A stretch of DNA of 23,746 bases from Bdellovibrio sp. Lineage in GTDB: Bacteria; Myxococcota; SpSt-1050. The stretch spans positions 1-23,746 of the forward strand of contig DYEF01000088.1 of the NCBI GenBank assembly GCA_020725805.1. The letters are read 5' to 3'. The notes beneath the pieces were generated by a model. That model did no database searches. It saw nothing but the letters and a program-made list of their open reading frames with translations, and was not told the DNA's origin. The position numbers were made by a program, and so were the translations under genes. Position 1 is the first letter of the stretch, and each line of letters begins with the position of its first letter. Positions 3,101-22,314 of this stretch are shown one piece after another.

Positions 3101-5412
3101 TCATAGTGGGGGCACGCTTTTACAATAACGGCCAAGCTGGCGAGGGAGCCGCCTTCATTTATCACGGTTCGGCAAGCGGCATCGGGACGAATTATGTCCG
3201 TATGCTCGAATCGAATCAGGCGAATGCCGAGTTCGGCTATTCGGTAGCCTCAGCGGGCGATGTGAATGGTGACGGGTATAGCGATGTCATTGTCGGGGCC
3301 CACTTCTACAACAATGGCGAATTCCGGGAGGGTGCCGCCTTCATCTATCACGGTTCGGCAAGCGGTATCGGGGCGGGTTATGCCAATATGCTCGAATCGA
3401 ATCAGGTAGAGGCTTTTTGGGGCAGGTCAGTTGCCTCTGCGGGCGATGTGAATGGCGATGGATACAGCGATGTTATCGTGGGAGCGCCTTTTTACGACAA
3501 TCCTGACTCTGCTGAAGGGGCCGCATTCATCTATCTGGGCAACGTGGGTGGCAAACCGATGCGTGGCAGACAGTTCAACTCGTCAGGGGCACAGGTGCTA
3601 TCTCCGTTCGCTTCGGTTCCCCTTTCCTCGGGATTTTCGGTCTCTGCGCTTGCCCGCTCATTTATGGGGCGCAGTAAGGCGCAGTTGTGGCTCGAATATA
3701 AGGGACATACACAGGCTTTCAACAACACCAGTCTCATAAAGGATACGAACTGGTACGATACCGGCACACAGGGGAATCTCATCAGTAAGGAAATCGGATT
3801 CCTGAGTCAGGGGAACTACAAGTGGCGCCTAAGGTTCAAATTCGCCGACGGTTCATTCTCCCGCTGGTTCGTCTTCGATCAGAGCCGCGGCGTGCTTACC
3901 CCCGATATCCGGGCGCGGGCGAATTATGGTACTTCCTGTACGACGGGGGCACAATGCGGTGGCGGAAACTGTGTTGACGGCGTCTGCTGTAACGAGGGAT
4001 GCGGCTACAGCGACGATAGCGACTGTCAGGTATGCAGCATTGCCAAAGGGGCGACGACAAACGGAATTTGCAAAATTCTTGATTCTTCCAAGGTATGCCG
4101 TTTGGCTGCCGGCGTTTGCGATGCGGTCGAATACTGCACCGGCAATTCTGCTGACTGTCCCGCTGACCTCAAACTCACAAGCGTATGCCGTAATGCAAAT
4201 GGCGATTGCGATGTGGCTGAGGTATGTGACGGAATAAACAACGACTGCCCATCTGATGCAGTAAGACCAGACACCTATATTTGCCGTGTCTCAAAAGGCG
4301 AATGCGATGTAGAGGAGAAGTGCAATGGAACGAATAAGGACTGTCCGGAGGATGCTTTTAAACCGGATACAACGGTATGCCGTACTGCGAAAGGATTCTG
4401 TGATGCAGAGGAATACTGCACAGGTTCATCACCTGCCTGTCCTGAAGATCTGAAACTGACGATAGAATGTCGTAAGGCAGAAGGGGATTGTGATTTAGCC
4501 GAGATATGTGACGGGATAAACAATGATTGTCCGGGTGATGCGGTTAGACCAGACACATACATCTGCCGTGTCTCAAAGGGAGAATGCGATGTAGAGGAGA
4601 AGTGCGACGGGTCAAGCAAGACCTGTCCACCTGATCTCTTCAAGCCTGAGACAACGGTATGCCGTACTGCGAAAGGAGTCTGTGATACCGCTGAATACTG
4701 CACAGGTTTGTCATGGCTCTGTCCGGAGAATAAGTATACAGAAGACGGGGAGTTATGCGATGATTCAAATCCTCTTACCAAAGGGGATAAGTGTATCGAT
4801 GGTGAGTGTACAGGGAATCTGATAGACGGTGTGTGCGGGAATGAAATAGAGATAGAGAATCTGCCGTATAGTAGGGATAGTACACTGACGGGTAGAATAG
4901 ATACAGTAGATGCGAAGGGGGAGAATTGTACCAGTATGGGAGCAGATGAGGTATATAAGGTGAATATGGAGGCTGGTAAGAGATACCGGATAGAGGTAAT
5001 CTCGAAGAGCGGGAGTTATGTAGGGTTTAATATAATGAAGGAGTGCGGGTTAGGGGATTGTCTTGCCGGAGCGGATAATACTGGAGGCGGGGAGAAGGCA
5101 GAGGTAGTATATGAGGCTGTAGATAGCGGAGAGGTGTATATAGTAGTAGAGGGGGAGAAGGAATATAGTATAAGGGTAAGTGTGGTTGAAGACCCGGATG
5201 CAGGTTATGACACAACGGGAGATGTTTCTGTATCAGATGCAGAGGATGTGTCGGTGACAGATGCAGGCGCAGATGCAGTAACGGATACAGGTAGCAAGGA
5301 TGTAGGAGCACAGGATACGGGGGTTAGAGATATAAGTATATCGGTTGATACCGGGACAAATAATGTAGGTACAGCAGAAAGCAGCGGTTGTTCGTGCAGT
5401 CTGGCAGAATAA
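190..5412 (+). CDS. Giant surface lipoprotein with FG-GAP propeller and disintegrin-like Cys repeats
   Basis: 1740 residues. The N-terminus is a lipoprotein signal (lipobox LMTGC, Cys25). Residues about 45-258 form a pre-domain that ends in YPLTIDPL, as seen ahead of FG-GAP arrays in related proteins. From about 263 to 1120 come 14 FG-GAP repeats of 62 residues, each with a calcium-loop sequence DVNGDGYSD, which suggests integrin-alpha-like beta-propellers. Then follow a beta-sandwich-like stretch (1125-1235), a short Cys-rich piece, seven disintegrin-like repeats (about 1302-1515; C-R-x3-G-x-C-D-x2-E-x-C-x-G-x4-C-P), a PPC-like domain (1540-1660), an Asp/Thr/Val-rich linker and the tail GCSCSLAE. 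Start chosen from AGGAGG five bases upstream. A calcium-dependent surface or adhesion role is inferred from domains only. It converges on the solute-binding gene with 14 bases between stops. Confidence 0.9.
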   Translation: MGTGLRLLAGRVFSVFGLILLMTGCFEQAEEKDKVSIAKSSERANNENNSWLATIQSRLAAGEYRISLQDNKFHAVNRQQNLRFYFYEGGQFTLQAREGAGEPVELKTVAVRQGDSLISLNGGAFVAGRCMDETRLGGDGACLARLERRTGVVTEWFDNRKEGLEQGFDLAQPISENGGLIVVEVSVANAEVKSQGSGAVFMQGEKMVAQVHSVFVLDARGTKREGRVEVSGSKLLFTVDPSGLVYPLTIDPLYDGTPDRVVESNQADAKFGVSVASAGDVNGDGYSDIIVGAPYYNNGQTDEGAVFIYHGSASGIGTTYARMLESNQANAYFGYSVSSAGDVNGDGYSDIIVGANYYTNGETYEGAVFIYHGSASGIGTTYARMLESNQAGAYFGYSVSSAGDVNGDGYGDVIVGATDYDNGQTDEGAVFIYHGSASGIGTTYARMLELNQANAQFGWSVASGGDVNGDGYSDIIVGVPYYNNGQSEEGAVFIYHGSASGIGTTYARMLESNQVNAHFGRNIASAGDVNGDGYSDIIVGAPFYANGETNEGAVFIYHGSASGIGTTYARMLESNQVNAYFGYSVSSAGDVNGDGYGDVIVGATGYDNGQSEEGAVFIYHGSASGIGTTYARMLESNQVNANFGCSVASGGDVNGDGYSDIIVGAYFYDNGETNEGGVFIYHGSASGTGTAYARMLESNQAGAQFGYSVASGGDVNGDGYGDIIIGAPFYDNGETDEGAVFIYHGSASGIGPSYTRMLESNQAGAQFGYSVASGGDVNGDGYGDIIIGAPFYDKGQTDEGAVFIYHGSASGIGPSYTRILESNQAGALFGWSVASGGDVNGDGYSDIIIGARSYDNGENDEGAAFIYHGSASGIGTTYARMLESNQANAYFGTSVASAGDVNGDGYSDIIVGAPYYDNGESEEGAAFIYHGSASGIGTTAARRLESNQANAYFGNSVASAGDVNGDGYSDIIVGARFYNNGQAGEGAAFIYHGSASGIGTNYVRMLESNQANAEFGYSVASAGDVNGDGYSDVIVGAHFYNNGEFREGAAFIYHGSASGIGAGYANMLESNQVEAFWGRSVASAGDVNGDGYSDVIVGAPFYDNPDSAEGAAFIYLGNVGGKPMRGRQFNSSGAQVLSPFASVPLSSGFSVSALARSFMGRSKAQLWLEYKGHTQAFNNTSLIKDTNWYDTGTQGNLISKEIGFLSQGNYKWRLRFKFADGSFSRWFVFDQSRGVLTPDIRARANYGTSCTTGAQCGGGNCVDGVCCNEGCGYSDDSDCQVCSIAKGATTNGICKILDSSKVCRLAAGVCDAVEYCTGNSADCPADLKLTSVCRNANGDCDVAEVCDGINNDCPSDAVRPDTYICRVSKGECDVEEKCNGTNKDCPEDAFKPDTTVCRTAKGFCDAEEYCTGSSPACPEDLKLTIECRKAEGDCDLAEICDGINNDCPGDAVRPDTYICRVSKGECDVEEKCDGSSKTCPPDLFKPETTVCRTAKGVCDTAEYCTGLSWLCPENKYTEDGELCDDSNPLTKGDKCIDGECTGNLIDGVCGNEIEIENLPYSRDSTLTGRIDTVDAKGENCTSMGADEVYKVNMEAGKRYRIEVISKSGSYVGFNIMKECGLGDCLAGADNTGGGEKAEVVYEAVDSGEVYIVVEGEKEYSIRVSVVEDPDAGYDTTGDVSVSDAEDVSVTDAGADAVTDTGSKDVGAQDTGVRDISISVDTGTNNVGTAESSGCSCSLAE
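976..3546 (+). repeat. Tandem 186-bp repeats encoding 14 FG-GAP units
   Basis: The codons for Glu-Ser-Asn-Gln open the first unit at 976 and the fourteenth at 3394, which is exactly 13 x 186 bp, so no net insertion or deletion has accumulated. Fourteen GDVNGDGY motifs can be counted. Units are very similar at DNA level, with long identical blocks such as the one encoding IYHGSASGIG. This points to recent duplication or ongoing gene conversion, and to possible copy-number variation between strains. Confidence 0.95.
4093..4731 (+). repeat. Disintegrin-like Cys repeats with a 282-bp super-repeat
   Basis: Seven units of 30-32 residues share the pattern Cys-Arg-x3-Gly-x-Cys-Asp-x2-Glu-x-Cys-x-Gly-x4-Cys-Pro. 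Units 1-3 (30+32+32 residues) are repeated as units 4-6, giving a 282-bp super-repeat at 4093-4374 and 4375-4656; a seventh, partial copy begins at 4657. Identical DNA blocks such as AACGGTATGCCGTACTGCG at 4371 and 4653 confirm the offset. Confidence 0.85.
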
Positions 5413-12477: not shown

Positions 12478-14883
12478 ATGCGATATTCACTGAAAATTCT
12501 TATAGTTTTGATAGTCCTGACAGCGGCAAATATCTTCTCGCTATACCCCTTCTCAGTGAATCTGAAAGACTCCGCTCCGGATAATCCTGATGATGTTTTA
12601 CTCAATTCATATATTATGCAGTGGGAATATGAACACATTCTATCCTTTGATTTATCTGATTACTTCAACACTTCATATTACTATCCGTATAAAAATACCC
12701 TTGCGTTTACAGAGCATCACACTATAAGTCAGGTTTTCTTTATTCCCCTTTATACTCTGATAAGAGATTCCGTATTTGTTCACAATATAATGATTCTTCT
12801 TCTGTTGATTCTCTCAGGTCTGACAACGTTTATCTTTATTCACTACCTGACCAGTTCATTTTTATCATCATTACTCGGTGCAGTATTGTTTACTTTTGTT
12901 CCGTACAGATATACGCATCTCGTTCACCTGAATGTTATTCACTGGTGGATTATTCCGGTTGTCTTTCTTACCTTTTATATATTTTCTGTCAGAATCAGTC
13001 CGAAAAATGCCTTGGTTTTCGGACTTTCGGTTCTGGCCCTCGTTTTGTGGTCGAACAATATGACTGCATTTTTTATTGTCCCGTTTTTTATCTATGCCTT
13101 ATTCACAGGTATCTCATCTGGGGCAATATTAAAACCGAGATTCTATCTGTACCTGTCTATAATTCTTGTATCTGTGGTGATTCTCTCTGCCCCTTTTCTC
13201 TGGCACTATATTAAACTGCGGAATGAAATGTTTTTTGAGAGATTCCTCTTCGATATAAGATATTATTCCCCTCAGTTAAAGAATCTGCTGGGTGTCAGTG
13301 AGACGAATCTCTTCTGGGGGAAATGGCTTGGCAAATACGGAAAATGGGAGTGTTTTCTTTTCCCGGGAACGATATTCATAATGCTGTTTCTTATCTCCAA
13401 TCTGACTCTCTTTGTCAATAAATACAGGCGGTACATTCTTCTATTCTCCTTTATTGCGATTCTGACGCTTCTTCTCTCACTCGGACCGTATCTGGACGGG
13501 CTCGAGGGAGACACAAGGGGGCCTTATTACCTTTTATGGAAATTTATGCCCGGATACTACGGGATAAGGGTACCTACGCGTTTTGCCATCTTTGCATATT
13601 TTTCTATGGCTGTGGTATCTGCACTCTTTGCCGCCGGTATTTCGGAAAGGCTGAAAGACAGGAAGACCTTCAGGGTGATATTTTCATCGGCGGTATTGCT
13701 GTTTACTATCCTTTTCATATTTGAAGGTTCACACAGGCCTGAACTACACAGACCTCTGAATCATCCTGAGAGAGACCCTGTCTATTCAAAACTGAAAAAA
13801 ATGGATTACGGGGTGGTTTTCGAATATCCGGCCTTTGCGGCCTATAAGGATGCCGCTCATGTCTTTGCAACACTATATCACAGAAAACCGACTGTTAACG
13901 GGTATTCCGGATGGAATTCCAAACCGCTTGAAAACCTGAGGGATGCAGTAAATACCTATCACCCACGGTCCCTGATAAGATTTATGAGGGATATGAATAT
14001 CCGTTATTTTGTCCTTCGCGGCAATGTCCCTTCAGACATATACAATAGAGTGTCTAAACTCGATGAATATGATAAAGGAGTAAAGAAGGTATTTACAAAC
14101 TTCAGGGATATCCTTTTTCAGCTCGATGACGCAGAGCTCAACGAATTCGATTTTTATAAGACAGAGCTCTCTGGTAAAGAATTCTACATTCCTTCGTGTA
14201 TAAGAAATGGTGAAAGGATTAACGGAGGAATAATCATAAAAGAGAGTAATGACAGATTCTCTTTTTCGCACAGAAGGAGATATCCGGTTTATTTGGATTT
14301 TATAAGCAGAGGTAATGGTAAAATCAGTAAAGTCAGTTCAGATATCGTGGCATACAGGGTTTATGAGCCGGGCAATATTCACCTTCTGATAAAGTTTAAG
14401 GCGGATTTGCCGGAGGGTCTTTATGCGGTTCGCCTGAATAACCTTATCATTAAGGAGTCAGTTAAACTCTCCCCGTCCTGTCCTTATGACCTCTCTGAAA
14501 ATATTGAACTGACAGATATTGACTTGCCGGACAGACTGAATGAGGGTGAACCGTTAAAAGTGGAATTCAGGATTAGAAATAACGAGAAATATCTGAAGGC
14601 AGCCGTCGATATTGATGATTTTACAACAGATGGTGTATTCAGGGTTGCGGTTTTTTTATGGGGACTTGATGAAGAGAATCAGCAAATACGATATGAACAG
14701 CGCTATCCGATATATTCGGATATGTCTCAGGGAGATGTTCTGCATTTCAGGCAATATCTGCCATTCTTTCTTAAGGAAGGCAGATATAAACTCAGGGTTG
14801 ACTGTGTCTCCGAGAAGAGATTCTGGTTTTCCAGTAAAGGTTCTTGCGGAGTTGAAAAGGAGATAGTTGTCGGCAAACATTAA
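12478..14883 (+). CDS. Polytopic membrane protein, GT-C glycosyltransferase-like
   Basis: 801 residues. The first 420 or so contain about ten hydrophobic segments beginning at residue 5; the first external loop carries DNPDD (35-39), the place where GT-C enzymes keep a catalytic acidic motif, and EHHTIS near 80. This arrangement fits lipid-linked-sugar glycosyltransferases of the GT-C fold (PMT/YfhO-like), but no subfamily can be named. The last 380 residues are soluble; the final 140 (from about ENIELTDIDLP) look like an immunoglobulin-like beta-sandwich. No ribosome site precedes its ATG, which abuts the stop of a nine-codon mini-ORF. It stands alone, without other polysaccharide genes in the window. 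The molecular role remains inferred. Confidence 0.7.
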   Translation: MRYSLKILIVLIVLTAANIFSLYPFSVNLKDSAPDNPDDVLLNSYIMQWEYEHILSFDLSDYFNTSYYYPYKNTLAFTEHHTISQVFFIPLYTLIRDSVFVHNIMILLLLILSGLTTFIFIHYLTSSFLSSLLGAVLFTFVPYRYTHLVHLNVIHWWIIPVVFLTFYIFSVRISPKNALVFGLSVLALVLWSNNMTAFFIVPFFIYALFTGISSGAILKPRFYLYLSIILVSVVILSAPFLWHYIKLRNEMFFERFLFDIRYYSPQLKNLLGVSETNLFWGKWLGKYGKWECFLFPGTIFIMLFLISNLTLFVNKYRRYILLFSFIAILTLLLSLGPYLDGLEGDTRGPYYLLWKFMPGYYGIRVPTRFAIFAYFSMAVVSALFAAGISERLKDRKTFRVIFSSAVLLFTILFIFEGSHRPELHRPLNHPERDPVYSKLKKMDYGVVFEYPAFAAYKDAAHVFATLYHRKPTVNGYSGWNSKPLENLRDAVNTYHPRSLIRFMRDMNIRYFVLRGNVPSDIYNRVSKLDEYDKGVKKVFTNFRDILFQLDDAELNEFDFYKTELSGKEFYIPSCIRNGERINGGIIIKESNDRFSFSHRRRYPVYLDFISRGNGKISKVSSDIVAYRVYEPGNIHLLIKFKADLPEGLYAVRLNNLIIKESVKLSPSCPYDLSENIELTDIDLPDRLNEGEPLKVEFRIRNNEKYLKAAVDIDDFTTDGVFRVAVFLWGLDEENQQIRYEQRYPIYSDMSQGDVLHFRQYLPFFLKEGRYKLRVDCVSEKRFWFSSKGSCGVEKEIVVGKH

Positions 14884-14905
14884 CAATAACTAATTTTATT
14901 GCCGA
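14870..14905 (+). repeat. Inverted repeat over the membrane-protein stop codon
   Basis: TCGGCAA (14870-14876) and TTGCCGA (14899-14905) are perfect 7-bp arms around a 22-base loop that contains the stop codon. The right arm includes the candidate -35 of the next promoter. No T-run follows immediately. It could be a weak terminator or attenuator, or chance. Confidence 0.35.
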
Positions 14906-14927
14906 TTAGCACATTATAATATATTAT
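14899..14927 (+). promoter_or_regulatory. Promoter of the PEGA/NifH-like unit
   Basis: TTGCCG (14899-14904), exactly 17 bases, then TATTAT (14922-14927). A TATAAT at 14915-14920 is an alternative -10 without a matching -35. Transcription would start near 14934, just before AAGGAG (14940-14945) and the ATG at 14954. Confidence 0.5.
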
Positions 14928-14953: not shown

Positions 14954-16351
14954 ATGAAAAGATTCATTTCGGTATTATTTCTGGCCTTGTTAATTACCAC
15001 AAATCTGTATTCAGAAGGACTACCATCTCTGATTGTTTTCAATATCGGGGCGGAGGAGGGGGTAACAAAAGGTAAAGCCAATATGCTCACGGAGATTCTT
15101 ATTGACGAGGTATCAAAACTCAATCAGTTTAAGGTAGTCGGACAGAAGGACCTTGACTCAATGTTCTTCTGGGAACAGAATAAACAGCTCAAGAACTGTA
15201 ACGATTCGTCCTGTCTCTCGCAGATAGCCGGTGCAATGGGTGCGGAATATTATGTCGAAGGCTCGGTCGGGCAGCTGGGCGACAAGTATATTATTGCTAT
15301 AAAACTTATAAATGCACACAAGGTTGAGATTATTAACAGACTTACCAAGAAGGTCTATAAGAGTGATAATGCACTGGTTGATGAGGTTCCCAAGATAGTA
15401 AAGGAACTCTTCGACCCGAAAAAACTCAAGATGGAATTCGAGGATGTAAAGGGCGAGGTCTTCTTTTCGTCCGGGCTTGATATAGTAAGTGAACCGTCCG
15501 GTGCCAGAATTACGATTGACAATGAGGATAAAGGAGTCACCCCGCTAAAAATAGAAAAACTTCGTAACGGCAAGCATATTGTTATTGCAAAGAAAGACGG
15601 ATTCAGGGACGAAGTGGTAAATGTAACACTGAATAAGGATGAGATTAAGCCTTTGATGATAAAGCTCAGAAAGAAGGTCTGCTCTATATATGTTGAGACG
15701 ACTCCCGAGAGTGCGGATGTCTATTTTCAGGGGAAGAAGTATTATACACCTGCCAGAATAGACAATGTCAGCCCCGGTAAGTATGAACTGAAACTGTATA
15801 ATAAAAAATACGGAGACAGGAAAGTGCCGGTAATTGTTTCGGAGGAGAATGAAGAGACAAAGGTGACACTCGATTTCGAGGCGACGACAATCGAATCTAT
15901 CAGGAAGTACAAAAAAGACGACGGAACGGGTTATTTTACATCAGACCTCTTCTATAGTTTCGGAGGGTCTTCTTACGGTGATGAAGACACTACTACTGCA
16001 CATATTCTGCAGTTCAGGACAAAGTTGAATCTGTTTCCGGTTTTACTGACTCCGCAGATCCAGTTACTTGCCACGAATAATAAATACTATTCGGGAAACT
16101 TCTCTCTGGTTGCCTTCAGCACGCAGCAGTTCGAGCTTCTGACGCTCGGGGTTGGTTTTACAAAAGGTCCAGAAACCGGAGGAGGAGGAATAGCATTTAA
16201 TCTCTACCGGATGAATATTGCCCTGCATACTGTTACAAGAAATAATGATACGCATCTTTTCATCGGTTTTATTGATGGTTATACGGGTGGCAAGAATGTT
16301 GTGGTCTCACTGATTTCTCTTGGGCTTGGTTACGGATTTTATATGTACTGA
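14954..16351 (+). CDS. Exported CsgG-like/PEGA-domain protein
   Basis: 465 residues. A Sec signal peptide covers about residues 1-20. Residues 23-135 resemble the CsgG/FlgO-type alpha-beta fold, with the segment NCNDSSCLSQIAGAMGAEYYVEG (two Cys, 82 and 87) typical of such proteins in Myxococcota. Two PEGA domains follow (about 174-240, SEPSGARITIDN...GVTPLKI; and 243-308, TTPESADVYFQG...TPARI), modules that occur in surface and cell-wall-associated proteins. The last 140 residues are rich in alternating hydrophobic strands and end in LGYGFYMY, with an aromatic terminus, so they could be a small outer-membrane barrel (inference). Good AAGGAG ribosome site. The NifH-like gene begins nine bases after its stop, so the two are likely one transcript. 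Periplasmic or outer-membrane scaffold role is likely; function unknown. Confidence 0.8.
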   Translation: MKRFISVLFLALLITTNLYSEGLPSLIVFNIGAEEGVTKGKANMLTEILIDEVSKLNQFKVVGQKDLDSMFFWEQNKQLKNCNDSSCLSQIAGAMGAEYYVEGSVGQLGDKYIIAIKLINAHKVEIINRLTKKVYKSDNALVDEVPKIVKELFDPKKLKMEFEDVKGEVFFSSGLDIVSEPSGARITIDNEDKGVTPLKIEKLRNGKHIVIAKKDGFRDEVVNVTLNKDEIKPLMIKLRKKVCSIYVETTPESADVYFQGKKYYTPARIDNVSPGKYELKLYNKKYGDRKVPVIVSEENEETKVTLDFEATTIESIRKYKKDDGTGYFTSDLFYSFGGSSYGDEDTTTAHILQFRTKLNLFPVLLTPQIQLLATNNKYYSGNFSLVAFSTQQFELLTLGVGFTKGPETGGGGIAFNLYRMNIALHTVTRNNDTHLFIGFIDGYTGGKNVVVSLISLGLGYGFYMY

Positions 16352-16360
16352 GGTTTTTGT

Positions 16361-17176
16361 ATGGAGAGTATCGCCTTTTACGGCAAGGGCGGGGTCGGTA
16401 AATCCTTTATATCGGCAAATATCAGTTACTATTTTGCAAAGAAGAAAAAGAAGGTTCTGCATATCGGATGTGACCCCAAGCACGACAGTACTGTTCTTCT
16501 GATGAGGGATAACAGGAAGGCATCCACTGTTCTGGATATAATAGGGGATAATGTAACTTTCAGCGATATCTCGGGTGTTATCAATGAAGGAAAACTCGGA
16601 ATAAACTGCATAGAGGCCGGAGGACCTCCTCCCGGTGTCGGTTGTGCAGGCAGAGGAGTTGCAAGGACTCTGGAATTTCTGCAGGAGAACCGCGTCATAA
16701 ATTCAAAAAAATATGACGTTGTCATTTATGATGTGCTCGGGGATGTCGTCTGCGGCGGTTTTGCAGCCCCTCTCAGACTCGGATTTGCAAAGAAGGTTGT
16801 GATTGTGACATCGGAAGAGGGCATGTCGCTGTATGCGGCAAACAATATTGCCAGAGCAGTAAATACATATTTCGATAACGGGATATTCTTATCGGGGCTG
16901 ATAGTCAATCTAAGAAACAATAATGCCGATAAAGAGATACTTTACAATTTCGCAGGCCGCATAAATACGAAGGTCCTCGGTTTTGTAAGAAGGTCAGACC
17001 TTGTGTTTGTTGCCGAAAAGGAGAGAAAGACACTGATAGAAAAATATCCTGATTCGACTGAATCGGGAGATATTGGACGGATTGCAGAAAACTTATTCAG
17101 ACACAAACTTAAATATGCCCGACCGACTCCTATGGATGATGAGGAATTCTTTGAATTCATAAAAAAAGGCAGCTGA
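16361..17176 (+). CDS. NifH/BchL-family iron-sulfur ATPase, partner not in window
   Basis: 271 residues, normal NifH length. The family comprises ATP-driven reductases (nitrogenase Fe protein, BchL/ChlL, BchX, CfbC) that form homodimers bridged by one 4Fe-4S cluster and pass electrons to a NifDK-like partner. Seen here: the P-loop GKGGVGKS (8-15), GCDPKHDST (36-44, closest in form to BchL), GVGCAGRG with Cys95 and Arg98, and GDVVCGGF with Cys131. Cys95 and Cys131 match the two cluster ligands, so the protein is probably active. GKSF after the P-loop recalls BchX. No NifD/K, BchN/B or CfbD gene is nearby, so substrate and partner cannot be given, and nitrogen fixation should not be assumed. 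Ribosome site GAGG overlaps the stop of the PEGA gene. Its last codons double as the T-run of a terminator for recG. Confidence 0.85.
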   Translation: MESIAFYGKGGVGKSFISANISYYFAKKKKKVLHIGCDPKHDSTVLLMRDNRKASTVLDIIGDNVTFSDISGVINEGKLGINCIEAGGPPPGVGCAGRGVARTLEFLQENRVINSKKYDVVIYDVLGDVVCGGFAAPLRLGFAKKVVIVTSEEGMSLYAANNIARAVNTYFDNGIFLSGLIVNLRNNNADKEILYNFAGRINTKVLGFVRRSDLVFVAEKERKTLIEKYPDSTESGDIGRIAENLFRHKLKYARPTPMDDEEFFEFIKKGS

Positions 17177-17183
17177 TCAGCTG
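17161..17183 (-). terminator. Intrinsic terminator for the recG unit, across both stop codons
   Basis: CAGCTGATCAGCTG (17170-17183) is a perfect 14-bp palindrome centred on the abutting stop codons TGA and TCA. In minus-strand RNA it can fold as a 5-bp stem with a GAUC loop, followed after two C residues by seven U residues (the A-run 17161-17167). The plus strand has no T-run after it, so it should act only on recG transcripts. Confidence 0.45.
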
Positions 17184-19537
17184 GTGGTTATCAGTTCGAG
17201 TTCTCTTTCACGTTTCTTTATCAGAGACCACAGAATGTTGTTCTTTTCTTCCTGAAGGTTCGGGTCAGTCTTTATAATCTCAAATGCGGAATTACGGGCC
17301 TCCTCGAGTATGTCTGCGTCTCTTATAAGGTTGCTCATATGCAGATCTGGTAATCCTGATTGTTTTGTGCCTGCAAGTTCGCCCGGTCCCCTTATCCTGA
17401 GGTCCTCCTCCGCTATCTTAAAGCCGCTGTTGGTCTTTTCCATAATTCTGAGTCTTTCAAAGGCATTTTCGGAGAGCCAGTTGTATGCAATCAGGTAACA
17501 GAAGGATTTCTTCGAACCCCTCCCGACCCTTCCTCTCAGCTGATGCAACTGCGAAAGACCGAATCTCTCTGCATGCTCGATGACCATTATCGAGGCTGCC
17601 GGTACATCGACACCGACTTCTATAACAGTCGTTGCGATGAGTATTTTCAGTCTGCCGGATTTGAATTCGTTCATTATATCTGTCTTTTCATCATCTTTCA
17701 TCCTGCCGTGTAAAAGACCTACAGGGATATCCCTGAAAACAGTATTTTTCAGTTTGTCATACATCTCTTCTGCCGCCTTCAGGTCGAGTTTTTCACTTTC
17801 TGAGATAATCGGATATACTATGTAGCATTGTGCGTCGTTCTTCAGAATCTGCTCTCTCAGTTCAATATATAATCTGTCTGCCTTTTCTCCTCTAATGACA
17901 TGTGTGGTAATCTCCTGTCTTCCGGGGGGCAGTTCCTTTATTATACTGATATCAAGGTCTCCGTAGAGAGATATTGCGAGCGTCCTTGGGATAGGTGTTG
18001 CACTCATCATAAGGAGGTCAGGATTGAGTCCCTTTGCCTTTATCCTTGCCCGCTGATTGATTCCGAACTGATGCTGTTCATCAACAATCACAAAAGTAAG
18101 GTTTCTGAAGGATATATTCTCTTCAAGCAGTGCATGTGTCCCTATTACTATCTTGGTTAAACCCATCTCTATATCCCCGAGGATTCTGGATCTTTCAGGT
18201 CCCTTGACAGAGCCTGTCAGAAGTCCGATGCGGCTCTGAAATGAGGGGAATATGTTGCAGAAATTTCTGTAATGCTGTTTTGCGAGTATTTCAGTCGGGG
18301 CAAGAATTGCGGTCTGTGTTCCGCTCTGTGCTACGAGATAGGATGTAATCATTGCGACCGCGGTCTTTCCGGAGCCTACATCTCCTATCAGGATTCTGTT
18401 CATCTGCTGAGAGCTTCTGAGGTCATTTATTATTTCATTAAGAGCGGTATTTTGTGAGGGGGTGAGCTTAAAGGGCAGATGATTTACGGCCTCTTTTACA
18501 GACGAATCCTCAATTTTGTGTGCATAACCGGTTTCGTCCTGAAATCTGGATTTTCGTAATGCAAGTGTTATTTCAAGGGAAAAGAGTTCATCGAAAATAA
18601 TTCTTCTTCTGGGCTCCCATCTGTTTGACTGAAGGATTCCGAAATCTACTTCCGGCAAAGGAAAATGAATCTCCTTTATCGCTCTCGGCAAGGGAATCAG
18701 ATTGTGTTTTTTAAGCAGATATTCAGGCAGGGGATCAGTCAGATATTCTGCATATTCATCGACTATATTTTTCATGATTTTTATAAGAAGACTTTCACCT
18801 ATTCCTTCGATGGCCGAATATACCGGAATGATTCTCCTGAAAAAGAGGTCATCATCTACCGATGAGGTCTCTTTGATTACAGGGTGATTTATCTGGATTG
18901 TTCTTTTGTAAAGATTCGCCTTCCCGCTGACAATCACATTCGTATCGGTTTTGAATCTTTCCTCCAGATAATTCCGGTAATGTGGCTGGATATTAAACCA
19001 TACGAGGTCAAGAAAACCGCTCCTGTCCGCTATCGTCATGGTATATGTTTTTCGTGTCTCCTTGGAACCGATAACCTTACCGGTTACCGTAACGGTTTCG
19101 CCCGGAGGTATATGGCCGATCGGAATTATTCTTCTCCTGTCTTCGTAATCCCTCGGGAAGAAAAAGAGGGCATCTCTGATAGTTGTAATACCTTTTCTGC
19201 TGAATTTTTCAAAGAGAACAGGCCCGACGCCTTTTACAAACTGAATGGGTTTCGAGAGAATATCGCCTGCAGGATTATTCTCCTTTGGTTTTTCCGTATT
19301 CTCTTTTTTTTGCTTTAGAAGTTCGCTTTCAATCAGGATTTTCAGCAGTTTCAGTGATTTTTCATCTGCTGCGATAACTGTCTGGTAAAGGTCGTTTAAA
19401 AAACCTGTCTTCTCCGAAAATTCGTCTTTCAAATCTTTTATCTCTTTACGGATCTGAGATATTTTTTCACTTTCGCTTCTGCCCGAGGCAACAAGACCCA
19501 GCAGTCTTCTGAGTCTTTCTGCAAATTCCTCTTTCAT
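17177..19537 (-). CDS. recG: ATP-dependent DNA helicase RecG
   Basis: 786 residues. RecG reverses stalled replication forks and processes branched DNA in the cytosol. The wedge/OB domain spans about 145-220 after FSRKGITTIRDALFFFPRDYEDRR; the helicase part has Walker A GDVGSGKT (385-392), the DEQH box (486-489), SATPIPRT (512-519) and GRVGRG near the C-terminus. It is about 95 residues longer than E. coli RecG (693): the extra N-terminal stretch (1-90) is charged and helical, possibly coiled coil, a feature of several deltaproteobacterial RecG proteins. Its start codon directly abuts the stop of the DUF1858 gene, so it is the third gene of a tight unit. It converges on the NifH-like gene with no base between stops. 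Confidence 0.96.
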   Translation of the reverse strand: MKEEFAERLRRLLGLVASGRSESEKISQIRKEIKDLKDEFSEKTGFLNDLYQTVIAADEKSLKLLKILIESELLKQKKENTEKPKENNPAGDILSKPIQFVKGVGPVLFEKFSRKGITTIRDALFFFPRDYEDRRRIIPIGHIPPGETVTVTGKVIGSKETRKTYTMTIADRSGFLDLVWFNIQPHYRNYLEERFKTDTNVIVSGKANLYKRTIQINHPVIKETSSVDDDLFFRRIIPVYSAIEGIGESLLIKIMKNIVDEYAEYLTDPLPEYLLKKHNLIPLPRAIKEIHFPLPEVDFGILQSNRWEPRRRIIFDELFSLEITLALRKSRFQDETGYAHKIEDSSVKEAVNHLPFKLTPSQNTALNEIINDLRSSQQMNRILIGDVGSGKTAVAMITSYLVAQSGTQTAILAPTEILAKQHYRNFCNIFPSFQSRIGLLTGSVKGPERSRILGDIEMGLTKIVIGTHALLEENISFRNLTFVIVDEQHQFGINQRARIKAKGLNPDLLMMSATPIPRTLAISLYGDLDISIIKELPPGRQEITTHVIRGEKADRLYIELREQILKNDAQCYIVYPIISESEKLDLKAAEEMYDKLKNTVFRDIPVGLLHGRMKDDEKTDIMNEFKSGRLKILIATTVIEVGVDVPAASIMVIEHAERFGLSQLHQLRGRVGRGSKKSFCYLIAYNWLSENAFERLRIMEKTNSGFKIAEEDLRIRGPGELAGTKQSGLPDLHMSNLIRDADILEEARNSAFEIIKTDPNLQEEKNNILWSLIKKRERELELITTS

Positions 19538-21258: not shown

Positions 21259-22314
21259 ATGACGAACAAGATTATTTTTACTATTTTGTTTGTACTTATA
21301 GGTTCAGGTATTATTTTTGCACAGGATAAGACAAAGGCTGCACAGACACCGCCGGCAAAGACAGAACCGAAGAAGGAAACCGCTATAGAGGAGAAGAAAG
21401 ATACAAAAGAGAAGGCTAAGGAAGAGAAGAGAGATGTCGAGGCCGACAAGAAGGAGATTCAGATAAAACTCAGGTCTGTTGCCAAGAATATGAGTAAGGA
21501 ACTTGAGAGAATAAAGGCAGGTGCAATTGTCAGAGTGGTTGTAAGCAGTTTTTCGAACAACGGGGAACTCGCAAAGAAGAAGGAAATCGGAACGCTTGTT
21601 ATGGGTGAACTTATGATAAATCTTTCCCGGTTCAATAATATCGAACTCATTGAAAGGGAGAAACTGGCAAAGGTACTGGATGAGATGAAACTCGTTCAGC
21701 TGGGCTTTGCCGATGAAAAGACCGCGGCACAGGTAGGTAAAATGCTGCAGGCTCAGGTGGTGGTCGTAGGTGAGGTTGCGGAGGCGGGAGATAAATTTGT
21801 CATTAATTCCAGAATTGTAGATGTCGAATCTGCAAAGGTACTCTATCAGGAGGGATTCAATTCTCCGATGGAGGGTATGATAGCACTTTCGAGTGAATCA
21901 CTTGTACTGAGAAGCAAACTGGATGCAACATACAGGTCACTCATACTTCCCGGCTGGGGTCAGTTTTATAACGGAGAAAAGATCAAGGGAGGAATTTTCA
22001 CTCTTGTTGAGATTGGTCTTTTCGCCACTGCCGTCTCTATGCACATTAACGGGACAAGAAAAGAGGATGAATATAAAAAACTGGATTGTACCGATCAGGG
22101 ACAGGACTGCCTTGACAAAGTTCAGAAACTGAAATCCGACGGAGAGGATTTCTATAAGCTGCGAAATTACTTTATCTACGGCGGGGCAGCCGTATGGGCA
22201 CTCAACGTTCTTGATGCCTATCTTTCGGGAAAGGACTTCAATTCGGCTCTCAAGACAACAGAGAACAGATTCGGATTTGGTCAGGGAGGTATGAGGCTCA
22301 GTCTTACTTTCTGA
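21259..22314 (+). CDS. Exported CsgG-like protein with DUF5683 C-terminus
   Basis: 351 residues. A Sec signal peptide ends at about IIFA (21), followed by a Lys/Glu/Ala/Pro-rich linker (22-75) that may cross the periplasm or bind peptidoglycan. Residues 85-205 have the CsgG/FlgO-type fold: LVMGELMINLSRFNNIELIEREKLAKVLDE, then AAQVGKMLQAQVVVVGEV. From 225 to 330 comes a DUF5683-like segment with SLILPGWGQFYNGEKIKGGIF and a second hydrophobic stretch FIYGGAAVWALNVLDAYLSG, suggesting two membrane helices. Function is unknown; envelope assembly is a reasonable guess. Its CsgG-like domain is a paralogue of that in the PEGA protein at 14954-16351. GGAGGAG lies just upstream, and rlmE starts two bases after its stop. 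Confidence 0.8.
   Translation: MTNKIIFTILFVLIGSGIIFAQDKTKAAQTPPAKTEPKKETAIEEKKDTKEKAKEEKRDVEADKKEIQIKLRSVAKNMSKELERIKAGAIVRVVVSSFSNNGELAKKKEIGTLVMGELMINLSRFNNIELIEREKLAKVLDEMKLVQLGFADEKTAAQVGKMLQAQVVVVGEVAEAGDKFVINSRIVDVESAKVLYQEGFNSPMEGMIALSSESLVLRSKLDATYRSLILPGWGQFYNGEKIKGGIFTLVEIGLFATAVSMHINGTRKEDEYKKLDCTDQGQDCLDKVQKLKSDGEDFYKLRNYFIYGGAAVWALNVLDAYLSGKDFNSALKTTENRFGFGQGGMRLSLTF

Follow-up and report, generated by a model that had tools for sequence, protein, structure and literature searches.

Group VI nitrogenase paralogs are reportedly accompanied by a suite of radical-SAM genes and are said to include loci from Myxococcales. The group is attributed to Meheust et al. (2020, ISME J 14:2907-2922) in PMC11257099, and the passages of the latter article that treat these paralogs give tetrapyrrole modification as their potential function. 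IsrBHDK and MarBHDK combine a NifHDK-like reductase with a radical-SAM partner, and Mar carries metalloclusters of the nitrogenase type (PMC11423573, PMC12552129), whereas DPOR (BchLNB) and CfbCD are NifH-driven enzymes with a simple Fe-S cluster. The His-Xaa-Ser (Hxs) RiPP systems are defined by families that include the precursor HxsA4 (NF038313), HxsB (TIGR03978) and HxsC4 (NF038332) (Haft and Basu, through PMC9062424).

The window considered here is a stretch of 23,746 nucleotides from the genome of a Bdellovibrio sp. (G000; 3.29 Mb in 115 contigs, 97.9% complete), and the gene of interest within it is a complete reading frame from the ATG at 16361 to the TGA at 17174-17176, which converges with recG (17177-19537, minus strand). 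The match of its product to Pfam Fer4_NifH (PF00142) extends over residues 3-268 and lies so far above the cut-off of 25 bits (Table 1) that a chance match is of no concern; with this score, a P-loop and both cluster cysteines, the protein belongs to the NifH superfamily. The sequence-only reading had noted that the P-loop, the GCDPKHDST motif, C95 and C131 are all retained, and translation together with an alignment of 14 sequences, on which residue invariance was judged, confirms this; the protein is accordingly described here as a predicted ATPase. It falls below every NCBIfam equivalog cut-off, with the CfbC model the best scorer (284.1 bits, cut-off 402), followed by TIGR01287 for the nitrogenase iron protein NifH (281.3 bits, cut-off 394.35), BchL (192.4 bits, cut-off 345.15) and BchX (158.6 bits, cut-off 331.2). 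A tree of 79 NifH homologs inferred by maximum likelihood, with reference CfbC (L183), BchL (L184) and BchX (L185) sequences among them, agrees with these cut-offs in placing the protein outside the characterised NifH-like families, as had been supposed. It lies in a clade of 21 members from Myxococcota and Elusimicrobiota (support 99/96), among them Elusimicrobia RBG_16_66_12, GWF2_62_30 and I2_bin-066, and this clade is separate from NifH, Vnf/Anf-type, CfbC, BchL and BchX and from the Mar/Isr-like groups, so that IsrBHDK and MarBHDK differ from the present system in their NifH clades.

To call this branch undescribed, as the earlier reading did, was too strong, as the clade fits the group VI paralogs presented in PMC11257099 and by its sequence relationships almost certainly is that group. 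The two share their hosts, Elusimicrobiota and Myxococcota, a NifH clade of their own, which we assume to hold the original paper's sequences, and the company of many radical-SAM genes, adjacent in relatives and present as scattered orthologs in the window's genome. They differ in that the genes are dispersed in the window's genus, and the description of group VI in the relevant passages of PMC11257099 makes no mention of the link to HxsA4 and HxsB set out below. In one Elusimicrobia genome a second, very long-branched NifH-like gene adjoins the clade NifH (G064:C192:2553-3344; L169:610-1498).

A search of the window's genome with PF00148 returned exactly two genes, adjacent on contig C47, which encode a D-like and a K-like subunit, and the window's NifH is the sole full NifH in that genome. 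It was therefore right to say that the window holds no NifDK-like partner, and the suggestion of a distant partner is borne out by this single pair. A genome search for NifD/K-like genes had also been proposed as a check; it produced a co-conserved pair, but not one of known function. Among 195 genomes of the phylum, the K subunit of the clade and the clade NifH occur in one and the same set of 12; where tested, the remaining NifH holders of the 195 scored as nif or bch type. NifH lies near D and K in most of these 12 genomes, and in Elusimicrobia-type loci (L075, L179, L158, L161) NifH and D are fused in one ORF. A single NifH and a single NifD/K pair in the genome, co-occurrence in the same 12 genomes and the fusions together support an H-D-K complex, and the best explanation of the window's gene is that it encodes the ATP-hydrolysing electron donor, or H subunit, of a nitrogenase-like complex whose D and K are encoded on C47.

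Table 1. Features of the H-D-K and Hxs gene set in the Bdellovibrio sp. genome (positions without a prefix are those of the window)
Feature	Position	Strand	Evidence or remark
NifH-like reductase (H subunit), group-VI, 271 aa	16361..17176	+	Fer4_NifH 268.4 bits; clade 99/96
P-loop GKGGVGKS, residues 8-15	16382..16405	+	invariant except residue 12 (14-sequence alignment)
GCDPKHDST motif, residues 36-44	16466..16492	+	G36, C37, D38, P39, K40, D42 invariant (14-sequence alignment)
Cluster cysteine C95	16643..16645	+	invariant (14-sequence alignment)
Cluster cysteine C131	16751..16753	+	invariant (14-sequence alignment)
PEGA-domain protein, judged a neighbour by position and not the functional partner	14954..16351	+	PEGA 76.8 bits
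D-like subunit, 601 aa	L008:10634-12439	minus	PF00148
K-like subunit, 440 aa	L008:9325-10647	minus	PF00148
D and K genes together	C47:25325-28439	minus	only NifD/NifK-like pair of the genome
HxsA4 His-Gly-Ser repeat precursor	G000:C42:7793-8173		84.7 bits, cut-off 55
HxsB maturase	G000:C42:8189-9667		530.8 bits, cut-off 370
rSAM-A	G000:C88:46381-47289		62% to NifHDK-linked counterpart in G005
rSAM-B	G000:C83:7027-7956		54% to G038
Third radical-SAM ortholog	G000:C80

Attention had earlier been drawn to the immediate upstream neighbour, described as a CsgG-like/PEGA envelope protein ending nine bases ahead of the nifH start. The spacing and the PEGA assignment stand, with two Pfam PEGA matches in that ORF; the CsgG assignment does not, as no Pfam CsgG match was found there at E<=0.001, and the window's CsgG match belongs to another gene (21259-22314), whose CsgG/FlgO-like product also has a DUF5683 domain. 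Directly upstream of the PEGA gene lies an 801-residue multi-spanning membrane protein with no Pfam match (12478-14883). A sigma-70-like site (9/12 match) is present at 14899-14927, but the region shows no excess of such sites (14, against 12.8, sd 4.0, in its shuffles). The two genes are probably co-transcribed, in the window's genus only. That NifH works with the PEGA protein and has no NifDK partner is nonetheless extremely improbable. The nine-base spacing is kept in the congener G001, but the two congeners are syntenic across the whole region, and a gene order common to both over that span lends the pairing little weight. The genus retains D and K as well, K accompanies the clade NifH in 12/12 genomes, and of all the NifH loci fetched, that of G001 alone yielded a homolog of the PEGA gene. 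Pairing with the envelope protein is thus not supported, its conservation stops at the genus, which is what the earlier reading had named as grounds for abandoning it, and the PEGA protein was rejected as the partner of NifH. Three predicted secreted proteins, one encoded in the window and two in L008, end in short Cys-rich tails (SSGCSCSLAE, SSSCSCSFLE, NSGCACAFIY; window 5383-5412, L008:1654-1683 and 3891-3920, minus strand) that resemble a C-terminal signal for sorting or anchoring.

Modelled with AlphaFold, D shows the core fold of NifD and matches both the MoFe alpha subunit (Z 21.8) and BchN-BchB (Z 17.5). No named family scores above about 40 bits with D or K, which, with the distance of the window NifH from the BchL and CfbC cut-offs, separates the complex from DPOR and CfbCD. 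Two cysteines are invariant in D (C185, C266) and one in K (C45), and with only three in all neither a P-cluster nor a FeMo-cofactor is expected, a point of likeness to DPOR and CfbCD and of difference from Mar. The conserved residues would fit one simple Fe-S cluster, whose fourth ligand is perhaps a residue other than cysteine, as it is in DPOR. Nitrogen fixation was rejected as a function, since neither the six P-cluster cysteines in D and K nor NifEN is present (the genome has just two PF00148 genes).

The loci that hold NifHDK in relatives are rich in radical-SAM genes, and orthologs of this suite are present in the window's genome in scattered form. The family termed rSAM-A was found in 17 of the 195 genomes, comprising 11 of the 12 with K and six of the 183 others (Fisher p about 5e-13, a value that ignores relatedness), and in G020, G030, G034 and G038 the start of NifH is within about 1 kb of it. 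The best match of rSAM-A is to HxsC4, at 178.6 bits against a cut-off of 500, so that it falls short of the equivalog, and rSAM-B reaches 48.3 bits against the same cut-off. The window's genome has 60 radical-SAM genes altogether, about 15 of them in 33 kb at G000:C41:47776-81107 (L220, L221), many with a B12-binding-like N-terminus and in the company of glycosyltransferase-like and oxidoreductase-like genes; a similar region occurs at G002:C105 (L222, L223), with one gene 43% identical between the two genomes. At G001:C93:23001-35664 (L214) at least seven radical-SAM genes stand in a row. One of them shares 36% identity with the radical-SAM gene adjoining NifH in G014, and another shares 28% over 760 aa with a double radical-SAM protein adjoining a NifD/K-like gene in G005.

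What exposed the link to Hxs was the finding of a double radical-SAM protein side by side with HxsA4 and HxsB on contig C42 of the window's genome, where both an HxsA-type precursor and HxsB exceed their cut-offs; that protein, sitting as it does with HxsA4 and HxsB, was dropped from the scattered NifHDK suite. His-Gly-Ser repeat peptides lie inside the NifHDK loci of G005, G002, G014, G069 and G065. HxsA4 exceeds its cut-off in G000, G005, G002, G014, G069 and G117 (G065 was left out of this scoring), and HxsB does so beside NifHDK or its D and K in G005, G002, G067, G065 and G069. In G105, G203 and G102 an HxsB above the cut-off lies close to rSAM-A. The most compact arrangement, in about 11 kb of the Myxococcales contig G005:C102, has the order HxsB-NifH-D-K-HxsA4-rSAM-rSAM-A-rSAM-B, and linked loci of this kind occur in several lineages of two phyla. 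In the NifH loci of other clades, the search for HxsB gave two weak matches alone (61-67 bits). At G105:C104 (L320) two adjoining precursors carry exceptionally long His-Gly-Ser stretches (dozens of repeats) with Trp at the end. An ORF cluster, 'c4', was discarded as a reverse-strand shadow of HxsB.

His-Gly-Ser arrays were found in 10 of the 12 genomes with K and in 10 of the 183 others, six of these 10 having rSAM-A, and in all six additional genomes, within the clade or close to it, to which NifH led (Elusimicrobiota and Myxococcota); a reversed-pattern control matched 4 genomes, with one or two matches each. Co-occurrence p-values take no account of phylogeny, and the base rate is that of the window's own phylum, to which the 195 genomes belong. 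Array matches in G011, G039, G085 and G201 seem unrelated, consisting of one to three matches or of HGT/HGW repeats. G030 and G044 have NifHDK with no array detected, and G044, which is 70% complete, also lacks rSAM-A and rSAM-B. Such co-occurrence could be purely ecological, with anaerobic, radical-SAM-rich bacteria holding both systems and the clustered loci a minority, and the 60 radical-SAM genes of the window's genome are in keeping with this. It is a very improbable account, given that in five genomes (G005, G002, G014, G065, G069) no more than about 12 kb separates NifHDK from arrays or HxsB, that a simple model puts the chance of at least 5/16 such linkages at about 1e-7, and that G067 adds an HxsB adjoining D and K.

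A further reading keeps the published proposal, namely that the group VI complex and its radical-SAM neighbours reduce a tetrapyrrole to a cofactor, and that the adjacency of Hxs genes reflects either their use of radical-SAM enzymes or a cofactor-bearing peptide. Besides the potential function on record for group VI, it draws on the best known small-cluster relatives, BchLNB and CfbCD, which act on tetrapyrroles (PMC11423573), and on the weaker likeness of rSAM-A and rSAM-B to the heme-modifying AhbD and NirJ (AhbD 66-86 bits). The HxsC4/HxsC models outscore those of AhbD/NirJ for both proteins, however (for rSAM-A 178.6 bits compared with 86.1, for rSAM-B 91.7 compared with 66.2), HxsA4 and HxsB above their cut-offs sit within NifHDK loci, and among the annotated neighbours, a subset of all neighbours, no tetrapyrrole gene was recognised. 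A tetrapyrrole substrate is on balance unlikely.

Co-function of the complex with the Hxs system is argued from the near confinement of H-D-K to genomes with HxsA4-type arrays, rSAM-A and rSAM-B, and from its physical clustering with HxsA4, HxsB and/or rSAM-A/B in several lineages and two phyla. The window's genus has these genes spread across several contigs, and since they are unclustered there the functional assignment rests on orthology. Compared with Hxs systems as described, HxsA4 and HxsB exceed their cut-offs both in the window's genome and in linked NifHDK loci; the present system differs in that rSAM-A and rSAM-B are distant relatives of HxsC4 and that a nitrogenase-like complex is added. 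Five genomes (G100, G102, G116, G117, G119) have arrays and rSAM-A with no NifHDK and indicate that the core pathway can do without the complex; NifHDK seems to be an optional component of a system made up of HxsA4, HxsB, rSAM-A and rSAM-B. Four of them, G102 (L295), G117 (L296), G119 (L297) and G116 (L307), hold HxsA4-type arrays, rSAM-A and rSAM-B, and HxsB where tested, and are natural comparisons for the contribution of the complex.

That H-D-K is optional, and that its loci hold many radical-SAM enzymes, would also suit a complex that leaves the peptide untouched and serves the Hxs radical-SAM enzymes, either by feeding them low-potential electrons or by inserting or repairing their clusters. 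Radical-SAM enzymes elsewhere draw on flavodoxin or ferredoxin, which counts against this role, as does the fact that every known NifHDK-like complex has a substrate of its own (PMC11423573). The N-terminal domain of D bears on the same point. It is about 115 residues long, doubled in G105 and G203, and confidently modelled (pLDDT 90); its structure gave no Foldseek match in the PDB at E<=0.001 and a best VIA-align Z of 5.4. In a single, chosen hhalign comparison it resembles the N-termini of radical-SAM proteins from the same loci (probability 91.7), which a plain HMM search reached only below significance. A domain that D seems to share in this way fits a common substrate better than a role in serving the radical-SAM enzymes, and the latter is quite improbable.

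The reading preferred here is that the H-D-K complex takes part in the making of the HxsA4 His-Xaa-Ser RiPP, and as a whole this explanation is favoured with moderate confidence. Membership of the Hxs pathway, taken by itself, is the firmer part and is likely; that the HxsA4 peptide itself is reduced, which would make group VI a RiPP maturase acting by ATP-driven, low-potential reduction, is tentative and falls somewhat short of an even chance. The steps may be pictured as follows. HxsB and the radical-SAM proteins would modify the (His-Gly-Ser)n core, and H, drawing on ATP, would deliver electrons to one Fe-S cluster that the three cysteines hold at the D/K interface. D/K might then reduce a group on the peptide, for example an unsaturated residue made by the radical-SAM enzymes or an imidazole ring, or else a small molecule to be attached to the peptide, and the N-domain apparently common to D and the radical-SAM proteins may dock both on the same peptide. 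HxsA4 of several genomes carries a twin-arginine-like leader (TRRDFL), scored weakly by TAT_signal in G005 (13.0 bits, below the cut-off of 16.7), and such a leader would be in keeping with export of the product once it is finished and folded. Within the window's genus these genes would have become dispersed, and the PEGA-nifH pair is read as one product of that dispersal.

For group VI, the linkage puts forward HxsA4 as a candidate substrate and HxsB, rSAM-A and rSAM-B as candidate partners, and the cluster at G005:C102 is compact enough for a direct test of the function of the complex. A literature search of incomplete coverage found no paper joining nitrogenase-like enzymes with Hxs or RiPP precursors. 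To our knowledge nitrogenase-type chemistry has no earlier case on a peptide substrate, and this would be the first. NifH matches from this clade in metagenomes should not be taken as evidence of nitrogen fixation. If the complex does act on the peptide, peptide maturation would join N2, pigments, cofactors and sulfur compounds in the range covered by nitrogenase-type reductases.
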